Below, piece by piece: positions 4,361 to 64,000 of a stretch of DNA of 64,000 nucleotides (within the stretch, counting starts at the first letter, position 1; each line of letters starts with the position of its first letter). Made by a program: the position numbers and the translations under genes. The DNA comes from Anadara kagoshimensis (Eukaryota; Mollusca; Bivalvia; Arcoida; Arcidae): NCBI GenBank assembly GCA_021292105.1, contig CM037860.1, forward strand, positions 9,380,698 through 9,444,697, in the 5' to 3' direction. Below the pieces are notes generated by a model. The model was not told the origin of the DNA, did not search any database, and worked only from the letters and a program-made list of their open reading frames with translations.

Positions 4361-4431
4361 AGTGGCTGAGTGGTCTAAAGCACACAAATCACAGTGCCTC
4401 TCACCACCTAGGTTCAAATCCCACTTGCCAA
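4361..4431 (+). repeat. tRNA-like SINE head
   Basis: A Pol III type A box (TGGCTGAGTGGTC) at about 4363 and a B box (GGTTCAAATCC) at 4411 are spaced as in a Leu/Ser-type tRNA. No complete cloverleaf forms, so this is a tRNA-derived SINE 5' end rather than a tRNA gene. The body appears to run on to about 4560 through 'ccttgatataagtgaaagaatctttgac', part of the tail shared with other SINEs in the window. Confidence 0.6.
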
Positions 4432-8264: not shown

Positions 8265-8389
8265 ACTTGTGATTTTGGAGAATTCCACAAAATGTAGTTA
8301 TCAAGATATTACCTCTTCAAAAATGGAATCTCTCTTGTGTTTTATTTAAATATCTTCAAACTTGGTTCCGAGAAAACTATAATATTATC
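8265..8389 (+). promoter_or_regulatory. SLC17 5' leader exon with two uORFs
   Basis: A good 3' splice site (pyrimidine tract and CAG ending at 8264) opens this exon, implying an untranslated exon further upstream. The transporter frame meets a TGA at 8270-8272 and no ATG before 8390, which supports 8390 as the start. The leader holds two upstream ORFs: a minimal ATG-TAG at 8292-8297 and an eight-codon one (MESLLCFI) at 8323-8349. Both end before the main start. uORFs commonly dampen translation; that effect is inferred here. Confidence 0.55.
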
Positions 8390-11300
8390 ATGTTGAGCAG
8401 AACATCACAGACAATAGCATTATGCTCCATTGCCAACTTTATAAATTCAGCAGACAGAGTCATCATGCCAATAGCTGTTGTTCCTATGGCTGATCAGTTC
8501 AAGTGGGATCTACATGGCCAGGGATGGGTGCTTAGCTCATTTGCAGTAGGGTATATGAGTAGTCAGGTTAGTATTGTGTTGATGGGGAGGTTGAAATTTA
8601 TTTATGTCTGGTCAATATTATTTCACTCCTAGGTCGCCATCAGTTCTGAAATGGTCTAAAGAAGCTGTAGTACCCATTAGTAACCAACAGACTTTGACAA
8701 AATGTTGATTTTATTCTCACTTGCATCAAAATGTACAATGTTCTTACAGTAATTATGGTAAAACTTTAGGAGTCTTAAATCTTGTAACCAGTAATACTTG
8801 TAATTATAATTTGGTGATTCCAACTTTCTGGATTAATCCAATTTCATTTAAATTTTGAGCACTGAAAAGTATAGTATAGTATAGTACTATTAGCCTGCTA
8901 TGATATTGTGTAAGCTTAAGCTTCAATTAAACTGAATCTACAAAGTGGTTTTATTGTACAGATAGCATCAGTTTTCATTATGGCAATTTTCCTACATGGC
9001 ATACATGTGTCTTGTCATTAATGTTTGTAAGAGTGGTGAAACATAATAGTGACTACTAACCCTTGCATAAATATATCAATCGTATATGTAATTAATGACA
9101 TATTTATAAAATTTGACTTTGCCAATTGTTCATTTTGCAGGTTATTGGTGGTAGTGGTGCCAAGAAATATGGTGGAAAGACAATTCTAACACTTGCTGTT
9201 ATTTTATGGTCTGCCTCAACATTTTTTGTCCCATTCTTTGCACATTCTTTAAATGCATTGATGATTGCACGAGTGTTACTTGGATTAGGTGAAGGTTTAG
9301 GTAAATATATATCTTGAGACATTATTTTAATTTTTATAAGTAGGAAAAACCCAACATTGACTCATGTTGTGCTTACATAAAAAAAACTACAAGTTTGGAA
9401 AGTTTTAATATTTTTCAAAAGAATGTATATATGACCTGTTTTATATATTTCAACCTATTACAATTTTTAAATAGTCAGAACTACAAAAATAACATTGATT
9501 TTTGTATGTAATTTCTGATAATTTGCTTTTGTCTTTTTGAAGGTTTACCAACCATTTTCCACATATTTTCACACACGATACCTGGAGAAGAAAGGTCAAG
9601 AGCATTCGGGTATCTGGTAGCAGCTGGTTCTATTGGACAAACATTTGCTTCTCTGGTTTGTATCTTTGCTTTGTTTAAAATGCAAAGAATAGAGTTCATC
9701 TGGAAAAACAAAATTATTGCATGGATTATAATCGGTCACTATGATTGAAACTTTGATGACTATAACAGTAGTCCTTCAAACGATACCTTGAAACCCCAAT
9801 GTCACAGAAGCCACACAAAAAAGAACTTTCATTCTCAACAGTGCATTGCATTAGAAGTGTAACAATATACAAGTATACCATGATAAAAGTTTAAAATATT
9901 GTAATGTTCTGTACAGAAAAAATGTCCAAATGGGAATCAATGTTTGTTGGCACTTGAATGTCCACAATTAAGCCGTCAGTGTATGTTTGTTTTATTTGTT
10001 ATTTCAGCTATGTCCACATTTTAGCTGGCAATGAATGTTTGTTTTATTTGTTTTTTCAGCTATGTCCACATTTGAGCTGGCAGTGGATGTTTTATTTATT
10101 TGGTTTTATGGGTTTTATATGGGTGATATCATGGATGTTCCTATATAAAGAAGTCAGAGGTACAATGGAAGAAGAATTTGTTGATCCACCAAAAGTAAGT
10201 CTAGTCAAATCACAAAACTTTATAATTTGTAAAATTTACATTGAAATACATGTATTTACTAGATGTTTGACATACCTGTAGCATTATGTTTTAACATGTG
10301 TCGCTCTTGTTGTATGTCTATCTGTCTTATATTTTTTCATATCAGTGACATATAATAAAATCAGCTATAATGATAAAATACAGGCCAAGTTTGAATTTGA
10401 ATATATTTTGGTCAAGGTGATTGGAGTTGTTGTTTGTAAGTGAAAATTATTAATGAGACAAAAGATAATTTTCATGCACATAAATGCACTAGTTTGTCAG
10501 TGATGTTGTTGGTGATGCCATAGATGTCTACAGTATGTGCGTCATGCTAATTATACTTACATGTCATCAGTAAGTAACATTTGTAAATTTTTACGTAACC
10601 TCATATAGTCAGCTAATTTGAATTTACTATTTTATTTAATCTTGAATGTGAAGTTTAACACAGTTCTATGAATTGATTCCCACTTTGTGGAGATCCTATT
10701 GTGATAAAGTTATCAGTTATGTTGGTGAAGGTTTTTTTTTCCAGTTTTCTCCACCACCATTTAAGAACCGAATACCTTGTTAATGGTGAAATTATCTTGA
10801 CTGGTTTAAAACACCATGCCTAACCGACTCTGTTTTTGTAGCAGTATCTCTAATTGAATCCAATACAATGACAATCTTCATTTTCTTTTTCAGGTAAATA
10901 ATACAAATGTCACCTGGCGTGAGTTTTTATGTCACTGGCCTTTATGGTCCATATATCTGGCACATTTTAGTATGAACTGGTCTAATTATATAATTATGCA
11001 GTGGTTACCCACCTATTTAACACGTCATCTAGGGGCAGATAAAAGTCACATGATGTTTACTGCGATGCCTTATGTAATGAATTCAGTAGTTGGTGTTGGT
11101 AAGTATTGTTTTATGTATCAAAAACAGTTAAAAACTTCAGTAAAACTAGAGATTAAAATGTTATATCAATAAAAAACAAATATACCAGACCATGTTCAAA
11201 TCACAATCCCAAATACAAAGAAATAACTTCAAAAAGTGGCAAATTAAATGAACTCTCTGCAGGGAAAGGGAGGCTGTGTCCTCTGGAAAGGTAAGCACCT

Positions 11301-21326: not shown

Positions 21327-22122
21327 ATAACATGGCATTACTACACCTGTTTTAACGCCGCTACACAGCCGTTTTAGATTTAATAAATTATTGAGGAACA
21401 AAATGTATTTTACTGAATCCACTTTGAGGGTTTAAACATAGTTTAGAATAATTAAGTATCTCTTCTTCTAGAGTTACATTTCTATAATGCACCCGAAATA
21501 ACAGCACTTAAAACGCTTTCTAAAATAAAAAATACAACCATTTAGATGCACATCTTGAGAATGTTATTCGGATAAAAACACGCCATGTGCAACAACAAGC
21601 AGCAAAGCGCAAATGGACAAACTATTTTTTATTTTATTTATTGATTTATTATTATTATTATTTGCTGTTTACAGATATTTGATGAGCTATTGGTTTGAAT
21701 TATTTACCCAAAGAAAAAATTAGTTCACCATTTTCCAGAAAGGTACTAATTTCATTCATGAAATTCTGCCCTGAGGATGCAATGTTAACCGTAATATTAT
21801 TTACGCGTTAAAATTCTTTGGCCACAACGTCATAAGAAACGGACACAAGATTGTCCTTGTCGTCATATTTTTATAATATTTAGGAGTTTTCGGGTTGGTT
21901 TTCAGATATTTACGTTTCATTTTTTGCCTCAAGCGAACTTTGACATCAGAATGCCCATAATAGGAAGTCAAATATCCATGTGATTGAAAACAAGTGATCA
22001 CATTGGTCGAGATTCACACGGGGTTCGTCACCACATCCCTGTCTACAAATACATGTACAGAGGTTTTTAAGCCACAGTAAACAGGGAACATTCCAAGTGT
22101 AAAGTGACAGAATTCTGAAAAC
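21327..22122. promoter_or_regulatory. Upstream region of the SOD-like gene
   Basis: This must hold the promoter and 5' UTR of the secreted SOD-like gene. The ATG at 22123 follows 'gaaaac', and no nearby 3' splice site requires an upstream exon. No convincing TATA box or other element could be picked out. Confidence 0.3.
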
Positions 22123-25100
22123 ATGGATGTGAAATTAACTTTAATTTTAAATGCTTTTATTTTAATTTTTGGTTTGACTGCTGGTCAATTTCAAAATCAG
22201 CCAAATCCACCTAATAATAATTTATTAACAAATGGACAACCTTTCTTAGGAAATAATAACGCCGGTGGACAGTTTAACGGAGAACCATCATTTCCAGTAA
22301 ACAACAATTTTAATGGACAAACGAATCCAGTAAATAATAATTTCAACAATGGACAAGCGAATCCTATAAATGGACAATTTCCACCGAGGAACAATATTCC
22401 AGGACAACCTGGAAATCAAGGTATCAATCCAAACACACTTGGAATTAATACACCTATTAATAATCAGGTTCCAGGACCAGGAGGATTTCCACCAAACAAC
22501 AACAACATGGGAGCTTTTCCAGGAAACAATAATCCATCTGGAATAGCCTCATTCCAGCCTGGTGGATTTCAAACAGTTAATAATCAATTCCAGAATCCAT
22601 TCGTAGCTGGAAATAATTTTGGACCAGGATTTGGAGGACCAGGATTTGGAGGTCCAGGTAAGCTGTGTTTAATATTGTATAAATTACATTAACGATTTGA
22701 AATCATAAATATGTTTTCTTCAAATATTTTCATAAAACTTTTAATTGCAATTTACTGACTTTTCAGTGAATAACGCGGCTATTCCCCCTCTTTTTTGAGG
22801 TTTATTTTCGTTTTTGAAGAAATTTAAATGAAAGGATGCTTTCAATTGATATCCATTTACAAATAATACTACCATCATCAATAATAATAACAATAAGCCA
22901 CAGTAGATGTTGGTGAATTAAAATGTTAATGCCGAAATGTAGTATTTTATGTAATATAACTTTTATGTATATTATTTTTATTAAACTTTGAAACTTCCGA
23001 AAAGGGAGATATGTTAATTACAAAATTTTTCAATTTAGAAACAACAGAAATTCTCATGGCATGCCAACACGGTAAATTTGAATGCGGCGCACTTTTGTCG
23101 GTGCTACTTTAAATAGTACATGTGTATATTCATTCATCATTTATTTGATTTATCTTAAATTAAAGAAAATTCAATAAAAAGAAATAGATTATTTACCCTG
23201 AAGACAGCCCGTAACTTTTGAAGAAACCATAAAAAAATGTTCATAATTACTACAAAGTATAATTAGTTTTTGATTTGTACAATGTAATATTTTTTCGTTA
23301 TTAGGATTTGGTCCAGTCGGGCCAGGAGGACCAGGTGGCCCAGGTGGACCAGGGGGTCCAGGAGGTCCCGGAACACCAGGGGGGCAACTATTGATGAGTC
23401 TGTCACAGAACGTTAACAACTACAGATACGGAACATGTTACTTCAACGTTACTAGTGGAAGCAGTATCGTCGGACGAGCTGATTTAAGACAATTTGTAAG
23501 TACCAATATTTATTGAACTGAATTAAGCGACTTTCAAAGAAGGAAAGAAAAGAGAAAGACAGAAAAAACCACTCCATATACAATATGTATGTGTTTTTAT
23601 TAAAAATTATTTTAGAGACGATATCTAAATTTAAGTTTTCAGGCCATATTTAGAGGTACAATTTAAGGTTTTACTCGCCTTTTCGTTGGCAAATTCATTG
23701 TTTATTGAAGTGTCCGTGTTGACTGCATCAAGCATCCTCTGCATGTCTTGTTATTCCCGGAAATTCGACAGATTATCCGACTTTGCTGTTTCCTAAAATA
23801 TGAAACAATAGATTGAATTAGAATAAAAATTAAGATCTTCGTTTTTTTGTAGATTTTTGGTGAATGGCCAGTAGAAATCAGAATCCAGGTTGTTGGTCTG
23901 CCCACCTCTCCAGTAGACACCCAGAGAGGTATCCACATCCACGAGTATGGAGATACCGGTGGTAACTGTGCCCGTGTTGGTCCACATTTTAACCCAACAC
24001 TCACAAGACATGGTGGAAGAAATAACTATCCATTGTAAGTAACATTAAAATTTAATGAAAAAATAATATTTTAGATTCTTTCAATTAGTTCAGATACATA
24101 TTTTAGTATTTAAAAGTATTTACTTTAAAAAAAACCATTTTAGCTGCATATTAACCCATAGACACGATAAACAGCATTTTAAATGTAGCAATAAAATTGT
24201 GTAATGATGTTAAATTACTAATTAATAATAAAGCAAAGTTTTTAATTTTACAGAGGTGAAAAAATCTAGAACTGTAGTTTCAAGATATTAATTTCCATTA
24301 CATATTCGTGCTGTAATCAATATTTTAAAAAAATAACTTGAGTTGACATCAATGGTTTTATTAATGTAAATAAATAAATAAATAAATAAATAAATCTGTT
24401 TTGTTTTCAGTTTGAGACATGTTGGAGATTTAGGAAATATGTTACAGTCACCAAAAGGAGTAGCATCCACACAATTCAGAGATAACATCATATCTTTACA
24501 AGGACAAAACAGTGTTATTGGACGATCACTTGTGGTTAGTACTTACACATTGGTTCAGATACTTTTAATGTAATAGTTTAAATGATAATTCTTTTTAACT
24601 TGTCATTACAAAATTACAAAATAATTTTGACTGTATCTGAAGAAAGATATGGATTTAAAATATATAAAACAAACAGTTTTAGATGTCCTTTTTTGCAAAT
24701 TCTACATTACATTTGTATTTGTAATTTTTCTTTAGATAAATATTTTCTTCATATATGAATTTTTTTGTTGGTCTTTATTTTTGTAACCTTAAGCTTGTTT
24801 CTTTCCTTTTGACCAAAATTTCACTATTTACTTTACATTTAATTATTCAAGTTCCACATTCTATTCCATTTCCAGATCAAGTATGAGCGTGATGATGAGG
24901 GAACTGGTACCAACTCTAGAAGCCAGGTAGATGGAAATGCCAGAACTCCTGTAGCCTGTTGTACTATCGGTAGAGCTGGTCCTGGAAACTGGCAAGATCC
25001 ATACACAGAGGAAGAACTTATATCCATGTCTGGAGGAGTCTGGAACAATGGAGGTGGCTCCACTTTTGGAGGTAACACTCCAGTTCAGGGTGCAAATCAA

Positions 25101-27095
25101 ATGGATGGTGCCATGAAAAATACAAATTTTAATGCTGCCGGGAATAATCTAAATGATGGTTCCCAAAATATGGGATCTCTGAATGGAGACACCTTTAATA
25201 TGGGTGGTTCTCCAGTTGGAGGAGGTCCAATAGGTGGCAACATGGGTGGCAACATCCAACCAGGTGGTTTAAATGGAGAAACTCAACCTGCCGGAGGTAT
25301 TTCTTTTTTGATTTGAGTTTTAAATTGGCACAATGGTGACTGGTGTTGAACATTGGAATGGCTTTGACTGGCAAGCTTGATTGGTAGCTTCTGGTTGGCT
25401 TCTTAGCCACTGGTTTCATGCTGATCATGATCTGGTTTAAAATATCTATCCTATACAAAGGTGAAGGATATATGGTAACTGTCACACCCACAGATAGAAA
25501 GTGCTGACCTGACTGTCTGTACTTTTAAATGATTCCTTTCACCTTTAATGAAAACCCCATTTGAACACCAAGCTACAGCACATTTCTGGAGTTGAAATGG
25601 GTTAGGGGGAAGGAGTTGGCTTATTCCATTATGGTTCAAGGGATCATAGCATATTCCATTATGATTTAAGGGATGAAAAGGCTTACATTAGCCATATTGT
25701 CATTGTGCTTAAGAGCAGCTTCAACTTGGTGTTCAAATGTTATGCTTACCCTCCTTTACCCTTAAAACCATCACATTGTTTCTAAGAACCAATTGCTTAA
25801 CATGTCATTTTACTCACCTTAACCTTATTCCTTACCCCCACAGTGGTTTCGACATGCACAATTAAACTTGCAGAATTTTTTTCCATTTTTAAAAGAAAAA
25901 TTAAAACTCATTTATAATATTATTATTTTTTTTTCTTAAATAATTTAGGTTTCTATATCATGTAACTAATTCTATGCAAGTTTGGTTGTGCTGTGTCAAA
26001 ACCTAATTTAATTATTTGATGCATTTGTAAAGTCACTTTGCATAATGATAATAATGTTTAAGTCATGCAAAACAATGTATCCATTTTCATTTATACTTTA
26101 CATACATATGATTTGTATTTGAAGTTTCAAATATGCTAATTTTAATACTTTTTAAGAACAAACTTTCTAAAAAGAAATAATCTTATATTAAATAGTATAG
26201 AAAAGTAAAAAAAATACCTGATTAGAAAACTTTATAAAGGGGCATAATTTTAATTATCTCCCTTGGTAAATGATAACTCTCTTTCAGGAAAAGAACAGAT
26301 ACTTTTTTATTTGGTTTAACAATAACTATTTTTCTGATTTTTCATTTTTTACTTTACATACAATTTAACCACATTATTTATCTGTTTTTAGGATTAAACA
26401 CAAACAATGGATTCAATACAGCAAATAATAACAACAATAATAACAATGCTTTCTCATTTGGAACATCAGGTAATTAATAAGTCAAAGTTCTATAACAGAA
26501 GAAAGATATTCACAAATGAAACACATTTACTTAATGGCTTTATCCAACGCAACCAAGAACACAAGACAAATCAATGATAAAACGGCCAACAAAGCACTTC
26601 CACTTATCCTTGGACAGGCATTGGGGTAAATGTCCAGTGGTGTGGTTATATACTGTTGGAGCCCAATAAGTCTAAAATAAATTGATTTACTTTTGACCTA
26701 TTTTATATCCCTTGCAATATGACATGAAAGAAGAAATACTATCTTTATAGGTCAAATAAACAATTATATGAAATTACCTTGTACTTCCAAAGATAAGTCA
26801 CAACTTTTCTACTACAATAGATGCTTAACTTTTCATGGAACACAGACTTGCTGTAGTATAAATTTGAGTCTAATCACAAGACAGTCTCTAATATTTATTA
26901 TTATTCATTGATTTATTGATTTATTTTTTAGGCAACACAAATAACAACAACTTCAATACCAATCCAAATACAAATACCAACAACAACAACCCAGCCTTCA
27001 CATTTGGAAATACCAACCAAGGTGGCACAGGAACCCAGGGAGGTACTGGCTCAAACACAAATTCGTTTGGTTTCCTTGGCAATGGCAAGAAGTAG
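22123..27095 (+). CDS. Secreted Asn/Gly-rich protein with Cu/Zn-SOD-like domain, 7 exons
   Basis: Exons: 22123-22657, 23305-23495, 23853-24034, 24411-24534, 24876-25296, 26392-26469 and 26932-27095, all GT-AG with matching phases (564 aa). Order of parts: signal peptide (residues 1 to ~21), Asn/Gly/Pro/Gln-rich region (~22-178), Pro-Gly-Gly stretch (~182-204), SOD domain (~215-380), Gly/Asn-rich tail with poly-Asn. In the SOD domain the metal-site motifs are HIHEYG (270-275), GPHFNP (285-290), RHGG (294-297) and LRHVGDLGN (304-312), so five His ligands and the Asp remain. Both disulphide cysteines are present (281, 372 or 373). The last copper ligand, His in the usual 'GRT.VVHE' motif, is Lys346 (GRSLVIKYE), and the active-site Arg near 'RLAC' is Pro369. 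Dismutase activity is therefore doubtful. Bivalve relatives of this fold (pernin, dominin, cavortin) are abundant haemolymph proteins; the Asn-rich flanks also resemble shell-matrix proteins. The actual role is unknown. The final two exons are small phase-1 Asn-rich cassettes. Confidence 0.88.
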
Positions 27096-29794: not shown

Positions 29795-30117
29795 GAGTAA
29801 TGGTGTTTAATGTCCCAGTCAAGAATATTTCACTTATATTGAGATGTCGCCAGCTATAGGCAAAGGTGCAGAAATTTTGCCTGTGCATTGGGCTGATGAC
29901 ATTATACAGCAAGGTTCTTTATCGTGCCGAGCCTACCTTGATATGGGACCTTGGTTATTTGAAGTTCCCATCAAAAAGAACCATGGTTTTTATTTTGTAA
30001 TGCAGAGTGCTTGGTGAAAGAACACTTTCAAGTCTTGGGTCAAACCCGGCAGGGGATCGAACCCCTAACCTCTCACTTACGGAGCAAGCACTCTACCAAC
30101 TGAGCTACCGCAGTGGT
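29795..30117 (-). mobile_element. tRNA-derived SINE with intact Pol III head
   Basis: On the minus strand the head (30116 down to 30045) reads like a tRNA: A box GCTCAGTTGGTAGAG, an anticodon-arm-like CTTGCTCCGTAAGTGAG, and B box GGGGTTCGATCCCC. The body then runs down to the tail 'aatataagtgaaatattc', 'ttgactgggacattaaacacc'. Of the SINEs in the window this has the best-preserved promoter and may be among the youngest. A flanking target-site duplication was not identified. Confidence 0.75.
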
Positions 30118-33841: not shown

Positions 33842-36800
33842 TCATTTTAATTTACTACTTTCTGATGATCCTATATCTAAACTCTGCCACTCATCATCTT
33901 CATCAGCCCACACCTCATTGTCCCATCCTGAATTTCCATTGGCTGGTGTTGTGGTGTCTTCACTGAGGTCCACTAAATTACCAACCAATGGTTCATTTTG
34001 TTTATTAGGACTGGAGATTTTTTTATTACCCCAATCAACATCATTCCAGCCATCATTAGCATTAGAAGTCACTTTGGAAGACTTTTTCTGGTTGCTTTGA
34101 CTAGATTTTTTAGATTTTGTTTTCTTTTCAGGTTCATTCCAACTGTCCCATCCATCATTTTTGGAACTACCTTTTGAAGAATGTAGGGGTGTGTCATCAT
34201 TAAGCCACGCCTCTAATTCATCATCATTGCCAGTATCAAATGATTCTTCTTTCTTTGTAGGTTTTTTCTTCTCTGGAGTACTTCCAGGTGAGTCAGGGGA
34301 GTTGTTATCCTTCCAGTCATCTCCACCCCAGCCATCCCATGAATCATCATCCTCTGATAGAAGCCTGTTTTTGCTCGGATCTCTAAAAAAATTATGAAGA
34401 TTAAAGTACTGATAAGTCTTCTCACAACATTTTTTATTTTCCACCAGTTAAAACTTATGAACTGACTTTGCATTTTTTTAAATTTTTAAATACAAGCATT
34501 TATTCTCATGTTCCATTTGAATTTGTGAAAAAGTTGCTAAATTAAAAACATTGACATATTCTAATACTTATCAGATATGTTGTATAAAAATTTTGTTAAC
34601 TTAAAATATCAATAATTTGAAATTCCTCAACACCAATGTATTGTCTGTAATTCTGGTGACATCTTGATATAGATCAAATGTTACATTCCATATAAAAATC
34701 AATCAATCAATCAATCAATCAATCAACCACTGAATGAATCAACGAATGAATCATTGAATAAATCAGTGAATGAATGAATGAATGAATCAATCAATCAATG
34801 TCCAGATATGAGTAATAAATACACGTACTTGTGATCAGGTGAGCCCTTTCCTAACAGAAGTGATGATTTTTCTCCAGGACTTGTATCAACTGAAGATAAT
34901 GTAGTCTTTTGTTCTCCCCACAATGACTGAAAACCAGTCCAGCCTTTTGCGCTAGCGGCTGATATCTGAAAAATACAAAAATAGCTATTATATACACTTA
35001 TATGGCTAAAGTCGGAAATGTACATCTATATATTTACATTTGTGATGTTTTAATGTATTATACTCTGTTTAAGACCAAATGGCAATTATATAAATGTCAT
35101 TACTAATGTGATGTCACTCAGCTCTTGCTTATGCCTATCTATATGTGTGAGGTCATTAATTGGCTGTTCCAGTGATTGAAAATGCATGTCATACACAGCA
35201 GTGTTTTAAAGTTTTTAGAAGATTAAAAAAACAAAACGAAGATTGTCAAAAAATTTGAAAGATAAATATAACCATTGAACTGTCTAGTTTTTAGTTTATA
35301 GTTATAGTGCTATAACTTCCATTACTGCACAAAGGAAACTAATCATATCACTAGTTCACATTATTCAGTTTGCTTTGCATAGCAATGGAAGTTACAAGAC
35401 TATAACACCATTTCTAGATAGTTAAATGGTTAAATAAGACTATTCAGGAGGGTTTTATTACATGTTTCAGTGATGTGAAGAGATTAAGAGTGCAAGATTT
35501 TCCCTTGGAAAGGATACAAGTCTATTTCAACAAAGTTATTCCCCAGCATTTCAACCAGTAACCATTCAATTACTAGAGCAATGGGAAGGCCACAAAGTCA
35601 AATGAGATAGATTGACCAATGATATAGCCAATGACATTATCACATACTGTTCATAGGAATTTTTATTTTTAATGACATTTTGGAAGGAAAACTGTGTGTG
35701 TTTGTAATAGCAAAATCAATAATTTAACAAATTGCCCTCTGACATGACAATAAATTGTCTATTGAAGTAAAATGTCTCAATAATTCTGATTTATTGTTTT
35801 GTCATATATATGTCAATTACAAATTATTAAATTTCCATAATTAGGGATGGCACGATATATCGGTATACCGATATACCGTTCGATGGGCTACTCCCGACGA
35901 TAATCGATACTGATTTTTTAACTAGAAAATCCAAAACTTCAGAAAAACAATTAAAAGATCAATTATATAAAACAATGTCTTACTTGTTTTTATTTACATT
36001 TATTTAAACGAGCTCCAATTGTCATAACATGTGCATTTGTAGTATTTTGTATATACAGGTAAGTACGTCATCAATTCTTGGGTACCTCTGAAATGGTGCG
36101 AAATCCTTCAGATGCTTGAGCGCCCCTTATTACAGTAAGAAGTACTCCAAGTGTATGCATGATTAAGATATGCTTCAGTCTTTTAAGCCTCTAGTTTACG
36201 TTGTTAAGCACATGGTCATTCGAAAATGCTTCATATGACATGATTTTAGGGAGTTAGATCAATGTATCAAGACTTTTCTCCACAGATTATTTTTCCGATA
36301 TGTATCGATAGTTATCGGCATGAAAAGAATAATAATCGATATTAAATTTCAGCAGCGATAGCCAGCCCTATCCATAATAATGAAATTATCTGGGGTTTTT
36401 AAAAACCAGAATATTTTATTTGATGAAAGGATTCTAGGATTTGTAATGCAAAATATACAGTGCCCATCTAATCCAAACTGTCATTTACTGTAAGATTTAC
36501 ATAGTCAATATCCAGCAAGATAAGAGGCATTTGCAATAAGTACAGAGTGATATACAATGCTTAACAGAAAAACATAGAAGCAATGACATTTTTACTTTTG
36601 TAAAGTTTTGTAGTGTTACACAAACTTGTAGATGTATAGTCACATTTAATGGTTGAACTAAATAGCACATAAAATGGCCATAAATTATACAGATAACAGT
36701 TCAATATATAGAGGATCTTAGACGAGTGGGTGTTTAATATGAAATTTATTAAACAAGTTTAATAAATTTCATATTAAACCCTCACAAGTCTAAGATTCTA

Positions 36801-37283: not shown

Positions 37284-40200
37284 ACATGGTGTACCATCTC
37301 TGGTAGATCCTAGTGTAAGAAATTTTGTAAGATTATTTGTAGAATATCATCTAAAGGTTCTCAACATAAATTGAGTCATGTTTACTCTGCAATACCAGAT
37401 CTGACTACCTAAATATGAGTGAAAGTATCTTGACTGAGGCATAAAACACCATTACCCCACTCAACTATACTCCTTTCTGGTGAACAAATACTTTGAATTT
37501 GATATGATAGGTTTGCAGGGTTAATTTTCCCTAGTAATTAGGTGGTTTCTATAAATCACATAAATTATCTTCTAATTGAAATTTCAGAAAACAGACTTCT
37601 TTTGAGATAATTTTGCCAAAAAAAATATTTTTTTAAAAATGCCAACAGAATTTTTAGGTAGCAGGTCCCAATTTCACAATCATTTCTTAGCTAAGATTTT
37701 CGTTAACTTAAATCTGGCAAAATTTAAAATCTACATAATTTTGTTGATTTTTAAGATATTCAGGAATTTAAGATGTCATTTTTAAGATCACTGCTAGATT
37801 TAATAATTTGCATTAAGTTGTGGCAAAAATATTCATCAGTAGTTCCAAAAATAGATAACCAAATTTTTCTAAATTTAAGTTAAGGAAAATCTTAGCTACG
37901 GAAGGATTGTGAAACCGTGGCCAGTAATAAATACACAGATTTAGTGTGTGATATTAACAGTAAATATTATACGAGTACTTACCTTTGAGGCAAATCCACT
38001 CATGGATGTACCAACGTCGTTAATTAATGTACCTTCCTTTACCTGTCAAAATAAATCGTAAATAAAATCATACATAGTTAATTGATTTATTTTTATTTAT
38101 AATATGTATCAATCAGTAACCGATAAATAATTTCACCATTAATCACAATAAGTTAAGAACAAGAGGCCCATGGGCCTGATACGCTCGCCTGATAACTAAT
38201 GGCTAGCTGATAGATTTAAAGAAAACATAAATACTAAACCCCAACAACTTTTTTTACATCATGATATCCGTTGTATCAATACCTACAACATTCTAGTATA
38301 CATGCCTATACAAAAAGTTTATAGTTTTCGAGATAATTAACCATTTCAGTATTGTTTCATATCTGTGACCTTGACCTCTGAACCCATGACCTTTTTCTAT
38401 ACATCAAAATGATCGTTGTATCAATACCTACAACATTCTAATATACATGCCTATACAAAAAGTTTATAGTTTTCAAGATAATTAACCATTTCGGTATTGT
38501 TTTGCATCTGTGACCTTGACCTTTGAACCCATGACCTTTTTCTATACATCAAAATGATCGTTGTATCAATACCTACAACATTCTAATATACATGCCTATA
38601 CAAAAAGTTTATAGTTTTCGAGATAATTAACCATTTCGGTATTGTTTCATATCTGTGACCTTGACCTCTGAACCCATGACCTTTTTCTATACATCAAAAT
38701 GATCGTTGTATCAATACCTACAACATTCTAATATACATGCCTATACAAAAAGTTTATAGTTTTCAAGATAATTAACCATTTCGGTATTATTTTGCATCTG
38801 TGACCTTGACCTTTGAACCCATGACCTTTTTCTATACATCAAAATGATCGTTGTATCAATACCTACAACATTCTAATATACATGCCTATACAAAAAGTTT
38901 ATAGTTTTCGAGATAATTAACCATTTCGGTATTGTTTCGCATCTGCGACCTTGACCTTTGAACCCATGATCTTTTTCTATACATCAAAATGATTGTTGTA
39001 TCAATACCTACAACATTCTAATATACATGCCTATACAAAAAGTTAATAGTTTTCAAGATAATTAACCATTTCTGTATTGTTTTGCATCTGTGACCTTGAC
39101 CTTTGAACCCATTATCTTTTTTTATACATCAAAATGATTGTTGTATCAATACCTACAACATTCTAATATACATGCCTATACAAAAAGTTTATAGTTTTCA
39201 AGATAATTAAAAATTTCAGTATTGTTTCGCATCTGTGACCTTGACCTTTAAACCCATGACCTTTTTCTATACATCAAAATGATCGTTGTATCAATACCTA
39301 CAACATTCTCATATACATGCCTATACAAAAAGTTTATAGTTTTCGAGATAATTATCCATTTCGGTATTGTTTCGCATCTGTGACCTTGACCTTTGAACCC
39401 ATGACCTTTTTCTATACATCAAAATGATCGTTATATCAATACCTACAACATTCTAATATACATGCCTATACAAAAAGTTTATAGTTTTCGAGATAATTAA
39501 CCATTTCGGTATTGTTTCATATCTGTGACCTTGACCTCTGAACCCATGACCTTTTTCTATACATCAAAATGATTGTTGTATCAATACCTACAACATTCTA
39601 ATATACATGCCTATACAAAAAGTTTATAGTTTTCAAGATAATTAAAAATTTCCGTATTGTTTTGCATCTGTGACCTTGACCTTTGAACCCATGACCTTTT
39701 TCTATACATCAAAATGATCGTTGTATCAATACCTACAACATTCTAATATACATGCCTATACAAAAAGTTTATAGTTTTCGAGATAATTAACCATTTCAGT
39801 ATTGTTTCGCATCTGTGACCTTGACCTTTGAACCCATGACCTTTTTCTATACATCAAAATGATCGTTGTATCAATACCTACAACATTCTAATATACATGC
39901 CTATACAAAATGTTTATAGTTTTCGAGATAATTAACCATTTCGGTATTGTTTCGCATCTGTGACCTTGACCTTTGAACCCATGACCTTTTTCTATACATC
40001 AAAATGATCGTTGTATCAATATCTACAACATTCTAATATACATGCCTATACAAAACGGTTATAGTTTTCGAGATAATTAACCATTTCAGTATTGTTTCAC
40101 ATCTGTGACCTTGACCTTTGAACCCATGACCTTTTTCTATACATCAAAATGATCGTTGTATCAATACCTACAACATTCTAATATACATGCCTACACAAAA

Positions 40201-43200
40201 TGTTTATAGTTTTTGAGATAATTAACCATTTCGTTATTGTTTCGCATCTGTGACCTTGACCTTTGAACCCATGACCTTTTTCTATACATCAAAATGATCG
40301 TTGTATCAATACCTACAACATTCTAATTTACATGACTATACAAAAAGTTTATAGTTTTCGAGATAATAATTAGAATCAGAGGTAAAAAAAATTAGGTCAC
40401 GACCTTCACAATTGACCTTGACCTCATTTTGAAGATACTAACAAGAAGATGTCAAAACCGCAAACCCCATGTCATTATCTGGTCAAATAGTCAAGTTATA
40501 ACAATTTGAAGCTATTTTACGATTTTTTCAAAATTAAACGCAAAAACGCGTAACCTACTTTTTATCCGAATTTTACAAAATGAACAAACTATAGGCTTAA
40601 GACACTAGAGAAGCCAAATATCACATCAGTTTTTTTCTCCAATCAGTACTTTTGGAGAAGAAGATTTTTTAAGATTTTTGCACCCCTAGGTCACCTTGAC
40701 CTAGTTTTGGTAGCCATGACAACGCCACGAACAAATCTGAATTGCACCGGCCCATATATACTTCTGACAAAGTTTCATTAAAAACTGTCCAGTAGTTTCA
40801 GAGGAGAAGTCGAAAATATGTGTTAACGACGCACGCACGCACGCACACACGCACGCACGCACGCACACACGCACATACACACGCTGCGCTATGCCATAAG
40901 CTCACATGACCTTTCGGTCAGGTGAGCTAAAAATCAATCTTTGATTACAGACTGACCGTTCAAAGGTGTTAAATGTACTGGTCAGCATAAACAGTATAGT
41001 CAATCAACACTGACCTGTTCGTTTGACCTTTAATTTAAATATTTGTCATAAACAAATTTATTTATGTATTGGGAAGGCACACATGTTGATTTCGTCTACA
41101 TAATGAATAACACTAACACAAGTCACAAACACTGTTCAGGTATGGACTGTAAATTCTAATACTACCTATGTAATGGGTGGATTCTCCTATATGAATTATC
41201 CTAATAAAGGGTCAAGCAGACAGGTCAATATTGTTTGACTATACATGTGTATGTATCATGTGTATTACCAGTATGTAAAATTTGATGAAAATAAGGGCAA
41301 ACTATCATCCGGCCAATCTGTACTTTAAGCAAATGTATGAGTGGATGCAATATAAACTTTGTTTTCTTATAAATGCATTTTAATTTGAATTTTACTGCAA
41401 ATATTTGTTGAATGCAAATTTTGTTTTCAAGTTTAATGAGGTTTTTGAATTTTAAAAAAAAAATTTTCAAATAAAGATATCAAGGGTAGTATAAAAATTA
41501 CACTCAAATTTCTATAGCAAATCTTTGGATTGATTGAATTGAATGAATGAGGGTTTATGTCCCAGTCAAGAATATTTTACTTGTATCAAAACATCACCAG
41601 CTGTAGGTGAAGTGGCAGAAACAAAACTTAAGTTAAGATTTCCTTATTCACAATACACTACTTCTAAAAATTAATGTTATAACACATTTTTAACTCAATT
41701 TCAATTGCATTATGACTTTGGTTCTATCTCTACTTTTAGTAATGACCTGATCACAACGTTTCCCCTTCAGCACATTATATACAGTAGAACTTCGATAACT
41801 CGAAGTGCACGGGACTTCGATAATGACTTCGAGTTATCGGGGTGTTCGAGTTTTCGAAGTTGAAGAATGACGTCACAATGTAACTTTCATTTCTTTGAGA
41901 GAAATGTTGGATGGTGTAAAACTGTTAACTGATACACTTGTGTAATATGTACCGGTATTACATAAAATAATAAATGAATTAAAATCAAATTATTAATTAT
42001 GTTTTTATAAGGACTGATGGCGACAACAAACGCATACATGAAATACACAAAATGTGTATTACCAATACATGACCGTAATGCATTCAAAGAACTGAATCAG
42101 ATAAACATATCCATGTACATTGTATGGTATAATAAACAAAACAAGGCGCACATTTTATAGAAATTATAAAACTAGTGTTCCTACCACGTGTTAGTCATTA
42201 AAACCCAGCTTAAATCACCTGAAAATTTATTGTTGTCGCCAGAGACACAAAACTCGGCTTCTACTGAGGGGGTACACGGTTACACTTCATCGACCATTAC
42301 GGCACAGAGTACTAATCCTTTAATTGATACTCATTAATACAGTAGCAAAACCTTTGATCTGTACCACCAATCATTAATCGGATTATACGGAAGTATTATA
42401 GCTAATTGTCGAATAATTACCGTGTTCTCACTGAAACGATCTATTGGTCACCCATTGTTAAAAATATTTCGAGTTTTAGAAGGTTGTTTTTCCTATAATT
42501 TTTAATTTTGCACCTTAAAATTACTTCGAGTTATCGGGGGTATTCGAGTTACAGGAGTTTGAGTTATCGAAGTTGTATTTATATATGTAGTTTATATAGA
42601 AAATCGGTCGGGACAAAATTATCACTTCGAGTTATCCTTGGTATTCGAGATATCGAAGTTCGAGTTATCGAAGTTCTACTGTAGACCACCTGTACTTTTA
42701 AAGCCATGCATTATACTATTGGTATATTTGAATTGAAATATCCTATATAGTTGATATAGATATATGTGGGTGTATATTGTATAAACATGCAATCAAACAA
42801 TAATATAACTTATAGCATGTACATTGAAATACCAAGCCCAACCCAACATAGAGCTACTGGAGGGGTGCAATCCCAACCCAACATAGAGCTACTGGAGGGG
42901 TGAATTCATTCCAGTGAGCTTGCTCCTCTATTTCCTGTTTCATGTATTGTATATACATGTATATGAAAGATTATAAGATGTATGAACTCGATCCTGCTCT
43001 GAACTCAAATTTTGTCTAAACAGACTGATTTTTTTATTTTTATTTATTTATTTATTTATTTTGAATTTTTATATCATTATGACATGTGAAAAGGGTAAAG
43101 TGGTCTAAAGTACAGGCTTATGGACCACAATTCCTTTCACTTCCTTGGTTTCAATCTCCATTCAGCAGAGTATCATGGAAAGTTTGTTAGTTAATTATAC

Positions 43201-45147
43201 AAGTCAGTGCTTTTCTCTTGGCAGCCTAATTTCATCCACATTCTCAGAACTGTCAACCAAAAACCTTTACTAAGGCCTAACATACAATTACTTCACTCTC
43301 TGCTGCTTGGATATCATCTCTCTCCTCTAAAAGGGTAGAATTAAGTGATTATAACCTCATACGACTACTAATTTCAGTATAATCATAGTCCATTGACATG
43401 TAAAAAAATACCAAAACAAATTGATTCTTCTTCAAATCACATTGACTACTTATACATCTAACTGTACCTATAGTAAATTTATCAAAATCCTCCAGCACTG
43501 ATCTTTTCAATTGTGTCATACCTTCAATTTACATTTCAAATTTTATTATGTAAATGTTTAAACTTTAAATCTTTAAATTAACTATCAAGATTAATTAAGA
43601 AATAAAAAGACTTTTTTTAATATGATGTGTGGAGCTTGGATTAAAATGTTACATAATATCTCAATAGTATTTTGGGTGAGGTTTTAGAAAACACTTAGGT
43701 TATTCTAATTTTAGATACTTTCTAGAATAATCTGTTTAGTGATTAATTTTTAAAATACAGAGAAAATGAGTTAATAGAATTTTACGATAGACATTTTATC
43801 AAAACATCACCAGATATAAATGAACTTATACATAAATTTTATGCTATGTGGTCTTTGACCTTAGATTCACCACAAACTAAGGTATTTTGATGATGTTTAA
43901 TTCATCAATTTTGTACCAGTAATTCATCTTTCAAGCTATGCAACAAAATCACATGTGAGGAAGGGGTGGGTGGGTGTATGGGTTATGGTAATTGTCTATT
44001 CCTTTATCATATTTGTTTTGCAGGAGGAAGGGTTTATTATTTCCTGGATAGGTCATATAGAAGAGAAGAACATCACAGTTCATCTCTTCTATCAGATTTG
44101 ATGCCAACCCAGACTCTCATAATGCCAATCCTGGCAATCATGCTAAATGAGTGTGATATAAACTGTTTATGTTTTGTGCTGATAAACTAAAGGAAAAATG
44201 TCTTTAAAATTGTCTTAAAGCATGTGCAAAAAGGCAATATAAACAAAACATGCTCTATCAACAGATATGTGAAAAATAAACTTTGGCTCTGAAAATTACA
44301 TTTACCAAAACTAATTTAATATTTTACAAAATGCAGGCAATGAAAAACCAACCCGAATACATAACAAAGGAAGACAAATTTAAGAGCCGTTGCCATGGTG
44401 ATACTTTACAATGTTCGCAAAAATAAAATTATACAGGAAACTTGGAATTTCTGACAAGGATGAGAGACAAACTCATTAAAATGCTACCACTAACAGTAAC
44501 AGTAATAAGGTTTCTCAATTTCCATTTTAAGTAAGCTGAAATTACAACTTACGCCCTGTGTATGATCTAAGTTTCAATGTACAGAATTAGTCTACTACAA
44601 AGGTAACAATGTAAGCAGATACTCATGTTTGTAAATTGCAATTTAAATTTCATATAAGATTTACATCTAAGCATGTTTTATGCTTTATTTTTGAAGTCTT
44701 TCATGATCAGATTATTACAAACATGCAATTTTTTTTATCAATATGCAAGTTTTATATTGGATAGTAGACAAGTGAACATTTCAGTTTGAACTTTTCCAGG
44801 AACAAGTGGAAAATTTTTCATATTTCCACATCCCTGGCATAAGTTTTAATGGTATTTTAATCAATAGTCGTTGAATAATTGAAGTTTTTCTATATCCATG
44901 GCAACTGCTCTTTGTTATGACATAAAATGGAGAGGTATGTTCATTAACTTACTTTACTGGCAAAGTTTGACATAGACGATGAAACGTCTTCGAAAAGCTT
45001 GCCTTCTGAAACCTACATACACCAAATAGGTACATGCACAATTAAAATAAAACAACATAATAAGAATGAAAAAGCCTTCACCATAAAAGAATTACAACAT
45101 CTACAGACTACTGGAAAATGTTAAAAATAAATAGTAGACTATGAAAG

Positions 45148-45193
<46 letters not shown>

Positions 45194-45980
45194 ACCTTTG
45201 TCTTTTTGCAAACATTGTATTCTTAACATGGCGTTTGATTACAAATATTCTCTCTCTCTCTCTCTCTTAGTTTTTCATAAACAAGTCTACTGGAACTATA
45301 CTAAAATAAACAACTACATTCATTCAAGCATGCGCGTCATTCAAGTGAAAAAAAAAAAATCTAAACTACACATAGTGCAAAATATATTGTTCACAACTCA
45401 AAAAAATGCCAGTCCACAGTATGCATACAAGTCAAAAACAGTAGTGTTACTGTTATGTGGTTATTCTAACTGTACTGGGCAATTGGCTGTATAAATGTAC
45501 TTTGTTTGGCTTGTAGATAGGTACAACTATTAACTGTGAGTCATGATTTTGTTGTAAAAGATTGACCAAACAGGGTTCACCAGCATAACATGTGATGAAT
45601 GTCCAATAATGTTTGTCAAATTTTGAGGAATATGTTTTCATTGCAAATTTCCAGCATAATATCACTTTCACCAGAAGACCTTAAGTCATTCCATATCCAA
45701 TTAAAATAATAGTTCTACACTAGCATTATTGTGCATCAAATGTTAACTGGTAAACCTTATGATTTCTAAAGAGCAAACCCCATGACAAAGAAAATTAATG
45801 TACTTTTAAATCTCTATCAAAAATATGTTATTTGTAAGTCACATGGTTTACAATGACAAGAGTTATTTCCCCTTTGATTAGAGTACCAACCTTTTCTTTT
45901 GTAGGTTTAATAACGGTTTCATTTACACTTTGTCCCAATTCTTTGGTTTTCTTTGAGGCTACTGTAGCTACTTTGGATGC
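33842..45980 (-). CDS. ARFGAP1: ARFGAP1, C-terminal half (5 exons, 5'-partial)
   Basis: Exons in transcript order: A 45980-45891, B 45012-44953, C 38042-37983, D 34965-34829, E 34382-33842 (stop TGA 33842-33844). Junctions are GT-AG and phases agree; with B and C both included this gives 295 aa. The protein activates GTP hydrolysis on Arf1 at Golgi and COPI membranes. Exon A ends KELGQSVNETVIKPTKEK, matching vertebrate ARFGAP1 'ASELGHSLNENVLKPAQEK'. B and C are two versions of the following segment (human VKEGKIFDDVSSGVSQLASK). D begins ISAASAKGWTGFQSLWG, matching 'GVGSKGWRDV'. A to C correspond roughly to ALPS2, the amphipathic helix that senses curved membrane. Exon E is acidic and rich in Trp motifs (DDSWDGWGGDDW, DGWDSWNEP, DGWNDVDWG, SGWDNEVWADEDDEW), as in ARFGAP1 tails that bind COPI/adaptor subunits. 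The N-terminal C4 zinc-finger GAP domain and ALPS1 are not in the window; the start must lie beyond 64000 or in exons I missed. Confidence 0.88.
34697..34800. repeat. (CAAT)n / (GAAT)n tetranucleotide tract
   Basis: CAAT units pass into GAAT-type units and back to CAAT. It lies in the intron between ARFGAP1 exons D and E, about 30 bp below the exon D donor. Confidence 0.85.
35842..36370. mobile_element. hAT-superfamily non-autonomous element, 529 bp
   Basis: Perfect 8-bp target-site duplications TCCATAAT lie at 35834-35841 and 36371-36378. Short imperfect TIRs begin TAGGGATGGC at the left and TAGGGCTGGC at the right (reverse strand). Subterminal 'atcgata/tatcggta' motifs are repeated at both ends. 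An 8-bp TSD with a TAGGG-type end is characteristic of hAT elements. No transposase ORF is present. It lies in the ARFGAP1 intron between exons C and D. Confidence 0.85.
36715..36796. repeat. Perfect 23-bp-arm inverted repeat with outer arms
   Basis: Arms 36732-36754 and 36757-36779 are exact reverse complements with a 2-bp spacer. After a few mismatches the pairing resumes in an outer ATCTTAGAC (36715-36723) / GTCTAAGAT (36788-36796). A second inverted pair, ATATCACATAAC at about 36802 and its complement at about 37219-37230, brackets the next 430 bp, which suggests a MITE with the hairpin at its edge. Confidence 0.8.
37241..37280 (+). repeat. (TA)n microsatellite
   Basis: About 20 AT/TA units just right of the 'gggttatgtgatata' inverted-repeat end. 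Confidence 0.9.
37664..37922 (+). mobile_element. Long-TIR MITE family M1, copy C
   Basis: Imperfect TIRs of about 50 bp run from 'atttcacaatcatttcttag' to 'ggaaggattgtgaaaccgtg'. The inside matches copy B (20255-20520) and, inverted, copy A (20029-20256). The copy ends only about 60 bp from ARFGAP1 exon C. Confidence 0.75.
38155..40932 (+). mobile_element. Helentron/pearl-like bivalve element with expanded satellite core
   Basis: The left arm (38155-38268) opens with 'aacaagaggcccatgggcc' including palindrome AGGCCCATGGGCCT (38164-38177). The core is a 145-bp satellite (38269-40367). The right arm (40368-40932) ends with an ACGC microsatellite (about 40829-40885) and a terminal hairpin: AGCTCACATGACC (40899-40911), loop TTTC, GGTCAGGTGAGCT (40916-40928), one mismatch. 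The plan matches 28588-29658. Terminal hairpins and satellite cores are features of Helentron-related bivalve elements. There is no transposase or helicase, so it is non-autonomous. It lies in the intron separating the duplicated ARFGAP1 exons B and C. Confidence 0.7.
38269..40367 (+). repeat. 145-bp satellite array, 14 full units plus a partial
   Basis: Unit starts fall at 38269 plus exact multiples of 145 up to 40299, with no indel over 14 units. Each begins (c/t)gttgtatcaatacctacaa and contains 'ctgtgaccttgacctttgaa'. On the minus strand this is GGTTCA-A-AGGTCA-AGGTCA: a DR1 arrangement plus a TCAAGGTCA extended half-site. Units 1-4 alternate between two variants, giving a 290-bp higher-order pattern. 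The unit length is close to one nucleosome core. Confidence 0.95.
41782..42681. mobile_element. Tc1/mariner (pogo/Tigger-like) non-autonomous element, 900 bp
   Basis: Perfect 23-bp TIRs beginning CAGTAGAACTTCGATAACTC are flanked by TA on both sides (41780-41781 and 42682-42683), the mariner-superfamily target duplication. Subterminal copies of 'ttcgagttatcg' repeat inside both ends. No long transposase ORF survives. It sits in the intron between ARFGAP1 exons B and C. Confidence 0.85.
42837..42906. repeat. 35-bp tandem duplication
   Basis: Two adjacent copies of 'ccaacccaacatagagctac' plus 'tggaggggtg' with a 35-bp period. Confidence 0.8.
43088..43330 (+). repeat. tRNA-like SINE, diverged
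   Basis: An A-box-like GGTAAAGTGGTCTAAAG (about 43092) and a B-box-like TTGGTTTCAATCTCC (about 43146) are spaced as in a tRNA-derived SINE head. The downstream body has no clear tail. Confidence 0.4.
45150..45191 (+). repeat. (TG)n microsatellite
   Basis: Pure TG run of about 21 units, about 140 bp on the intron side of the ARFGAP1 exon B acceptor. Confidence 0.9.
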
Positions 45981-47480: not shown

Positions 47481-48623
47481 TAAATGCGACTCCCTGAGGC
47501 CCAAGTAAAGGGATCCTACTGTCACAGCTGAATGTGGTTCCCTGAGGGCCAAGTAAGGGGATCCTACTGTCACAGCTGAATATGGATCGCCAAGGCCCAA
47601 GTAAGGGGATCCTCCTGTCACATCTGAATGTGGTTTCCTGAGGCCCAAGTAAGGGGATCCTACTGTCACAGCTGAATATGGATCGCCAAGGCCCAAGTAA
47701 GGGGATCCTCCTGTCACATCTGAATGTGGTTCCCTGAGGCCCAAATAAGGGGATCCTACTTTCACATCTGAATGTGGTTCTCTGAGGCCCAAGTAAGGGT
47801 ATCCTACTGTCACAGCTGAATGTGGTTCCCCAAGGCCTAAGTAAGGGGATCCTACTGTCACAGCTGAATGTGGTTCCCTGAGGGCCAAGTAAGGAGGTCC
47901 TACTGTTACAGTTGAACGCGGTTCCCTGAGGCCCAAGTAAGGGGATCCTACTGTCACAGCTGAATTTGCCTCTGAGAGTTCCAAGTAAGGGAATCCTACT
48001 GTCACAGCTGAATGTGAATCTCCAAGGCCCTAGTAAGGGGATCCTACTGTCACAGCTGAATGTGGTTCCCGAAAGCCCAAGTAAGGGAATCCTGCTGTCA
48101 CAGCTGAATGTGGTTCCCAGAGGTCCAAGTAAGGGGATCCTACTGTCACAGCTGAATGTGGTTCCCGGAGGTACAAGGGGATCCTACTGTCACAACTGAA
48201 TGTGGTTCCCTGAGGTCCAATTAAGGGGATCCTACTGTCATAGCTGAATTTGGTTCCCTCAGGCCCAAGTAGGAGAATCCTACTGTCACTGCTGAATGTG
48301 GATCTCCAAGGCCTAGGTAAGGGGATCTTACTGTCACAGCTGAATGTGGTTCCCCAAGACCCAAGTAGGGGATCCTACTGTCACTGCTGAATGTGGATCT
48401 CCAAGGCCTAGGTAAGGGGATCTTACTGTCACAGCTGAATGTGGTTCCCCAAGGCCCAAGTAGGGGGATCCTACTTGTCACTGCTGAATGTGGATCTCCA
48501 AGGCCTAGGTAAGGGGATCTTACTGTCACAGCTGAATGTGGTTCCCCAAGGCCCAAGTAGGGGGATCCTATTGTCACTGCTGAATGTGGATATCCAAGGT
48601 CCAAGTAAGGGGTCCTACAGTCA
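47481..48623. repeat. 48-bp minisatellite, about 24 units
   Basis: The unit is 'ggggatcctactgtcacagc' followed by 'tgaatgtggttccctgaggc' and 'ccaagtaa', 48 bp. Because 48 is a multiple of three, frames stay open on both strands, for example 47475-48005 and 48221-48604 on the minus strand, repeating VTVGSPYLGLREPHSA. Near the right end (about 48285-48590) two unit types alternate as a ~96-bp dimer. It lies upstream of ARFGAP1 exon A, probably in an intron. Confidence 0.95.
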
Positions 48624-62735: not shown

Positions 62736-64000
62736 TCATAGAAAGAAATGTAGTAAAACAATAACCATAATTGACTTTTGTTATTACAGTAAATATAGCT
62801 TCCTTATAATATACAACTTACAAGCTCCTGGATAATTTTAAACCAAATTTTGAATCTACCAATGAATTTGAGGAGATTGGACCACTACCCACTTTGGGTT
62901 TGACTGATTTTAACTACATGTTTATGTATTTACATTTACTGTGTGTTTTCTCCTTATCTTTGTAATTAAACATTCACATTATGTAGGTTTTAAAAAATTA
63001 TTAGCAGCAAAATTTCACAAACTTTGTGAAAATGTAGTCATTCTGAAAGTACTTTTTCACAAATTTGATGAAATAGATTAATTTTCGAAAGAATTTCTCA
63101 GAAATTAGTAGCAAATGGAGATTTTGGCTACTAGAAATGGAAACAAAATTATGTGACCATAATTACAATACATTGGGACCTGCAAATGTATGACATATAC
63201 AACACACCATGTCATGCCAACTCATAGCAACATGAGATAGTGTATAGTCCAAAGACATGGATGCAACATATTGTGGTGTCAAATAATTTTTTATGTTTAA
63301 GAAGAAAATCTGAAATTTAAAAGAGTGAATTTAACTGGTTGTTCAATTGGTTCTGGATCAATTTAACTGTAAATATAAATACAAGAACTAAATTGTTGAG
63401 ATTTGGTAATTTTGGTTGTATAACTACCGTTGGTATTTAAGACCAACTAATCATAGTACAATAATGTGGGTTATTCAATTCACCTGGAATAATCAGGCAG
63501 TTATTTGACCATAATAATTACATCTTGTTAGTTCAATAATTTTGAACATCCTCGATTTTTACCTAAAACAATCATACAGGTTGCTGTCTATGTTTCAACA
63601 TTTGCCAATCAAGAATAGTGTATTTATTGGTATTATCAGAAAATCTCTGGAAATCTACATTGTTGGTAATATAATCACAAAACTTCCAATTATTATCTTT
63701 ATGAGTCCAATTAAAACCTGTTTAGATATCTCTTTTGTTGAACAGAAACAGTCAATATTTTTGCCAAATTTTATTATGTCATCGATAAATAAATCAATAA
63801 CCCAAGATTTTATATTACCAATCAAACACAAACATACTTGTACTAGTCCATGTCCAAATCACAGGGATTTATCAGGATCTTTTGGGAAAAGGCCCTAAAC
63901 TAACAATTGGGAAAAACTATCAACTTTTTGCTCATTTTGGGAAAATTTTGACATCATTTTTATGCCATTAATGATTAAATCTAATGTGTTTAGTGTATTG
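62736..64000. other. Presumed intron/intergenic to window end
   Basis: No exon of the ARFGAP1 GAP domain was found. A short R1 fragment is at 63824-63865 ('aacatacttgtactagtcca', 'tgtccaaatcaca'). A plus-strand open frame at 63542-63898 has no recognised domain and overlaps that repeat. Confidence 0.3.

Follow-up and report, generated by a model that had tools for sequence, protein, structure and literature searches.

The question raised by this locus is whether a bivalve ARFGAP1 gene carries the first half of its curvature-sensing ALPS2 helix twice and, if so, whether a transcript takes one copy, the other or both. The window, by which we mean the whole 64-kb stretch of DNA analysed here, corresponds to C4:9380698-9444697 of the assembly searched (1,115,223,567 bases in 36 contigs). 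A preliminary description of this DNA proposed two exons of 60 bp and phase 0 at 44953-45012 and 37983-38042, and both are found, on the minus strand and with GT-AG splice sites:

Exon B, 44953..45012, minus strand: 60 bp, phase 0-0, encoding VSEGKLFEDVSSSMSNFASK, the N-terminal half of ALPS2 in its first copy
Exon C, 37983..38042, minus strand: 60 bp, phase 0-0, encoding VKEGTLINDVGTSMSGFASK, the N-terminal half of ALPS2 in its second copy

Read on the minus strand, exon B (45012-44953) is preceded by GTATGTAG, runs from GTT to AAA and is followed by the donor GTAAGT; exon C (38042-37983) is preceded by TTTTGACAG, runs from GTA to AAG and, in the window copy, has the same GTAAGT donor. The encoded peptides are identical at 13 of 20 residues and their BLOSUM62 score of 61 was equalled by none of 200,000 shuffles of C, the best of which reached 40, which bears out the proposal that the exon is duplicated. 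After this pair, the next best of the 369 AG-60-GT stretches in the window (82 of them open) scores 3 against B, and the next best of the 32,557 open 20-codon stretches scores 23. In a comparison of all 11 exons of the gene model with the 53.7-kb region of the gene (matches accepted up to E 1), a mutual match was obtained for B and C only (20/20 residues aligned, E about 5e-5), the remaining cross-matches, including an 11-residue likeness between exon 6 and exon A, having E values of 0.19 or weaker. Both exons make in-frame junctions with their neighbours in the gene model, and the expectation that skipping or swapping would be frame-neutral holds, each exon being 60 bp long and of phase 0. 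Neighbouring, significantly similar and equal in length and phase, B and C have the properties of tandemly duplicated exons. The duplicated ALPS2 exon is real and is probably functional. Relatives of the pair were found neither among 22 pattern matches in viral contigs nor among 85 in bacterial and archaeal genome contigs, as expected for an animal gene.

The gene was delineated by tblastn with a working human ARFGAP1 sequence, whose matches in the window are exons A, B, C and E, and exon D was read from the sequence between C and E by way of a KGW core:

Exon A, 45891..45980, minus strand: 90 bp, phase 0-0, encoding ASKVATVASKKTKELGQSVNETVIKPTKEK; between ALPS1 and ALPS2, placed by splice sites and phase (tblastn match to the working human ARFGAP1 sequence at 55% over 31 aa, E 2.7e-5)
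Exon D, 34829..34965, minus strand: 137 bp, phase 0-2, encoding ISAASAKGWTGFQSLWGEQ...; C-terminal half of ALPS2 and the following linker
Terminal exon E, 33842..34382, minus strand: 541 bp with the stop codon; Trp-rich acidic tail

The ArfGAP catalytic domain is absent from the 64-kb window, and a profile search of the assembly placed ArfGap-matching exons about 15 kb beyond the window end on the same strand. An 11-exon model was built by hand using the neighbouring 20 kb, the splice ends of exons 1-6 being hand-picked from tblastn matches without a gene predictor, so that a missed microexon is possible. The model stays open throughout, coding for 532 residues when B and C are both included and for 512 when only one of them is. 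Its Pfam ArfGap match is at 2.8e-33 and, in the PDB, it matches ARFGAP1 at 1.8e-63 and 1.1e-61 as against 1.2e-28 for ARFGAP3 and 1.4e-26 for ARFGAP2; its N-terminal ArfGap zinc-finger domain is closest to ARFGAP1, and the identification of the gene as ARFGAP1 stands. The A-D segment alone returned no Pfam family and two PDB rows only (E 0.28 and 1). C-terminal to the GAP domain the model has two putative ALPS-like segments, one in exon 6 (57 bp; ALPS1 core GWSSFTIGASKFASVASEK), with a best 18-residue moment of 0.38 compared with 0.46 in rat, and the other formed by B or C with D. Phase 0-0 is common to exons 6, A, B and C, each of which could therefore be omitted with the frame preserved. About 27.5 kb of intron separate exon 6 from exon A, and the introns that follow are 878 (A-B), 6,910 (B-C), 3,017 (C-D) and 446 nt (D-E) long. 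None of 15 ArfGap rows spans profile positions 15-112 (exons 2 and 3) in one piece, as a processed copy might, although this is weak evidence. The intron before exon A also contains a 48-bp tandem array (47497-48623, 23.6 copies) that is open in more than one minus-strand frame and is probably non-coding.

Against the working human ARFGAP1 sequence, the tblastn match of exon B covers residues 259-279 at 67% (E 0.002), and that of exon C covers residues 258-279 at 50% with an E value of 0.17 that is not significant alone. The homology of C to the vertebrate segment therefore rests on its likeness to B (E 6e-5), and the claim that both exons are homologous to that segment is sustained directly for B and for C by way of B only. 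We take human ARFGAP1 to have this segment once. The working human sequence also carries S284, T291 and T292 at the numbering given for ALPS2. In the cited excerpt, ALPS2 comprises residues 264-295 and includes these three residues (PMC13139335). Exons B and C align to residues 259-278, at the start of ALPS2, with the rest in exon D; about 15 of the 20 exon residues would therefore belong to its N-terminal half, in agreement with the earlier placement of the segment at or next to ALPS2.

The helix geometry was compared for the possible combinations of exons. The hydrophobic-moment angle between the two ALPS2 halves is 27 degrees in the working human sequence, 31 for B-D and 33 for C-D, with a shuffled mean of 89; at 11/3 geometry the same angles become 7, 3 and 2 degrees. 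Between B and C the angle is 162 degrees, and from B to D across C it is 129 degrees. The moment of the whole helix is 0.457 for B-D, 0.431 for C-D and 0.456 for the working human sequence, compared with 0.168 for B-C-D. Thus B or C alone is predicted to rebuild with D a continuous ALPS2 helix whose face is in register, and B-C-D is not, although the register argument is not independent, since a repeat of 20 residues is always turned by about 160 degrees simply through its length. With a hinge at V(K/S)EG, the helices could also be separate. Hydrophobicity is slightly higher in the C form (0.484) than in the B form (0.453), and the C form carries three charges to the four of the B form and the six of the working human sequence; the helix starts with two acidic residues in B (LFED) and one in C (LIND).

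Comparison of B with C at the nucleotide level gives 11, 14 and 6 identities out of 20 at the first, second and third codon positions, or 25/40 for the first two positions against 6/20 for the third (Fisher p 0.028). Different codons are used for 7 of the 13 shared residues, including two serines encoded as TCA versus AGT, and the 60 nt flanking the two exons match, ungapped, at 24/60 and 19/60. The duplication reads as old, with both copies retained as protein. An ancestral symmetric 60-bp exon encoding the N-terminal half of ALPS2 would thus have been duplicated long ago.

The whole window recurs in a collinear second copy at a distance of about 1.1 Mb, on the same contig and in the same orientation (C4 ~8.274-8.339 Mb). 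With alignments filtered at identities of at least 90% and lengths of at least 500 bp, 23 alignments extend with gaps from base 1 to base 64000 of the window at 91.8-99.1% identity. The exons differ at 0/90 (A), 0/60 (B), 1/60 (C) and 2/137 positions (D), and the proteins of C and D are unchanged. In the stretch made up of B and 600 nt on each side, 1,253 of 1,254 aligned bases are shared with the second copy; agreement is 569/597 over the 600 nt that follow C and 154/218 over the 220 nt that precede it, since the copies part there. The C donor is GTTAGT in the second copy and GTAAGT in the window. Two intact homologous exons, both constrained as protein, accordingly lie in a gene with an intact frame, and both are present in the second copy. 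The B-C intron of the window contains one further difference:

Tandem array, 38269..40367, plus strand: 145-bp unit repeated 14.5 times with 95% matches; towards the exon C end of the B-C intron

This array is absent from the second copy, where window positions 38159 and 40929 map to adjoining positions 4423 and 4422 of the second-copy stretch (L013). Exon E of the second copy is one base short near its 3' end (L013 ~1280), shifting the frame of the last ~35 residues, which could be an assembly error. No match reaching 500 bp at 90% was obtained with a probe placed 80 kb farther out, where the two stretches may no longer be in line. Elsewhere, ArfGap matches form same-strand pairs 0.9-1.0 Mb apart on C5 and on C11, as well as an opposite-strand pair 2.2 Mb apart on C9; from the same-strand pairing, the assembly may contain both haplotypes left in series.

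How the two exons are used can be approached from their splicing signals. Donor scores, computed with working frequencies, are 1.47 bits for A, 3.3 for B, 7.73 for C and 2.49 for D, and 2.95 for C in the second copy. B has the fewest pyrimidines before its acceptor (12/20, compared with 13-15 for A, C, D and E), a (CA)n tract occupies positions 144-178 nt upstream of it, and it is flanked by two copies of TGCATG, which we take to be an RBFOX-type motif:

TGCATG, 45033..45038, minus strand: starts 26 nt before exon B; only a lead
TGCATG, 44722..44727, minus strand: starts 226 nt after exon B; only a lead

The 300-nt flanks of A, C and D have no TGCATG. With 0.08 occurrences expected per 300 nt, or about 0.64 over the eight flanks, against two seen and with nine patterns tried, the motif is a lead and not a result.

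We favour, with a probability of roughly one half, a putative arrangement in which most transcripts would use either B or C. Two ALPS2 helices would result that match in length and register, and their acidic and hydrophobicity differences might allow binding to Golgi membranes to be tuned by splice choice. Alternative use of some form, whether one exon per transcript or an optional exon, is on balance the likelier condition of the gene, a leaning that comes from the helix register and the reported brain isoform altered in ALPS2; a strict one-or-other choice is a further step that we put forward weakly. Against exclusivity, both exons are multiples of three, so that double inclusion or skipping preserves the frame, and the intron between them is long. 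Devices enforcing mutual exclusion, namely a short intron, a U12 site (5' sites of the U12 type are lacking to a distance of 300 nt around exons A-D) and a frameshift on double inclusion, are all absent. Nor was a convincing competing RNA structure found in a search limited to ungapped pairing between six region pairs. Pairing of the B flanks with the C flanks is unremarkable (65-89 of 100 shuffles as good), and pairing across C, in a comparison with shuffles alone, was equalled by 6 of 100. A 17-nt pairing across B (45219-45203 with 44423-44407) was better than all 100 shuffles; as 16 of 247 placements of the same size at other sites in the window were as good, this candidate competing structure was dropped.

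The two exons could instead be constitutive and read in series, giving the 532-residue protein a longer helix-hinge-helix ALPS2, which we regard as possible but doubtful. The shared 0-0 phase of exons 6, A, B and C and the single open frame through B and C are consistent with it, as are the donors of the pair, that of C having a score matched by only 4 of 3,677 GT sites. A parallel is provided by GFP carrying the GMAP210 ALPS twice, which in the excerpt cited localized to the ER and partly to the Golgi, and from which its authors infer that two ALPS are needed for binding (PMC4569407). The opposed faces of B and C and the low moment of the continuous B-C-D helix argue against this arrangement unless VKEG forms a hinge. 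It is unlikely, in our estimate, that constitutive use of one exon is combined with optional, cassette-like inclusion of the other, with B as the regulated exon and one or two copies of the segment per protein. The stronger window donor of C, the pyrimidine-poor acceptor of B and the two TGCATG motifs, both retained in the second copy, would fit such a cassette. Yet the order of donor strength is not fixed, as the second-copy C donor is weaker than that of B, the two motifs stand against about 0.64 expected with nine patterns tried, and retention of TGCATG in the second copy says little because the sequence around B hardly differs there (1/1,254 bases). Finally, exon C might be a decaying relic that is not spliced in, being less vertebrate-like than B (50% versus 67%) and having a weaker donor in the second copy; this we hold to be very improbable, as both copies retain an intact frame, protein and splice-site dinucleotides, and B and C match less often at third positions (6/20) than at first and second positions (25/40).

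Tandem exon duplication itself is a well known phenomenon, of which the ARFGAP1 pair is a further case. Tandemly duplicated exons are present in about 10% of animal genes according to the excerpt of PMC9013439, and tandem duplicated exon substitution events, whose homologous exons are mutually exclusive, resemble the pair in that neighbouring homologous exons share length and phase (PMC9741552, PMC9013439, in the portions cited). The present pair, for which exclusive use is putative, differs from these in the 6.9-kb intron that separates its members and in that both are frame-neutral. The word 'ARFGAP' has no occurrence in the main text of PMC9741552. The nearest relative by gene is vertebrate ARFGAP1, in which the brain isoform has a deletion/insertion altering ALPS2 (PMC4944158, citing Levi 2008); a change of ALPS2 by splicing is thus reported in vertebrates in the text excerpted, in the same family and segment (264-295) as here, although there it is a deletion/insertion and here a homologous same-length exon pair. 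A duplicated exon 10 in the oyster AOX gene is claimed by its authors as the first mollusc case (PMC5589949, as excerpted), but concerns an unrelated gene, a terminal exon and an alternative 3' splice site, with one mRNA form containing both copies. The helix-2 exon of vertebrate COE/EBF is, like B and C, a small duplicated helix exon, and from the portion cited it follows that joint inclusion of duplicated exons is possible; it differs in that gnathostome transcripts include both copies and that its modelled origin is a non-symmetric exon (PMC2394523). A literature search, assessed mostly from listings, found no earlier report of an ARFGAP1 exon pair and no match for ARFGAP1 together with 'mutually exclusive exons'.

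If one exon is used per transcript, as we favour, a single gene would supply two natural equal-length curvature sensors, with which the dependence of Golgi binding and Arf1 GTP hydrolysis on ALPS sequence could be tested cleanly; if B and C are read in series, the gene would be a natural test of ALPS helix lengthening. It is conceivable, although quite improbable, that a tissue-specific RBFOX-type choice between register-matched ALPS2 half-helices sets the curvature sensitivity of this COPI-uncoating GAP, in which case it would constitute a lipid-packing-sensor splice switch that leaves helix length and phase unchanged.

Other features of the window lie away from the exon pair. On the plus strand, open stretches at 22108-22692 and 24843-25316 are rich in Asn, Gly, Pro and Gln and have no Pfam match at E up to 10; at a guess, they possibly encode a secreted matrix protein. 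Further plus-strand open stretches at 8273-8632 and 10858-11172 match Pfam MFS_1 (Major Facilitator Superfamily) weakly (~1e-4), below the curated cut-off. Downstream of the gene, a tRNA-like match to Rfam RF00005 at 30051-30107 on the minus strand (31.6 bits, gathering 29) looks like the head of a tRNA-derived SINE.
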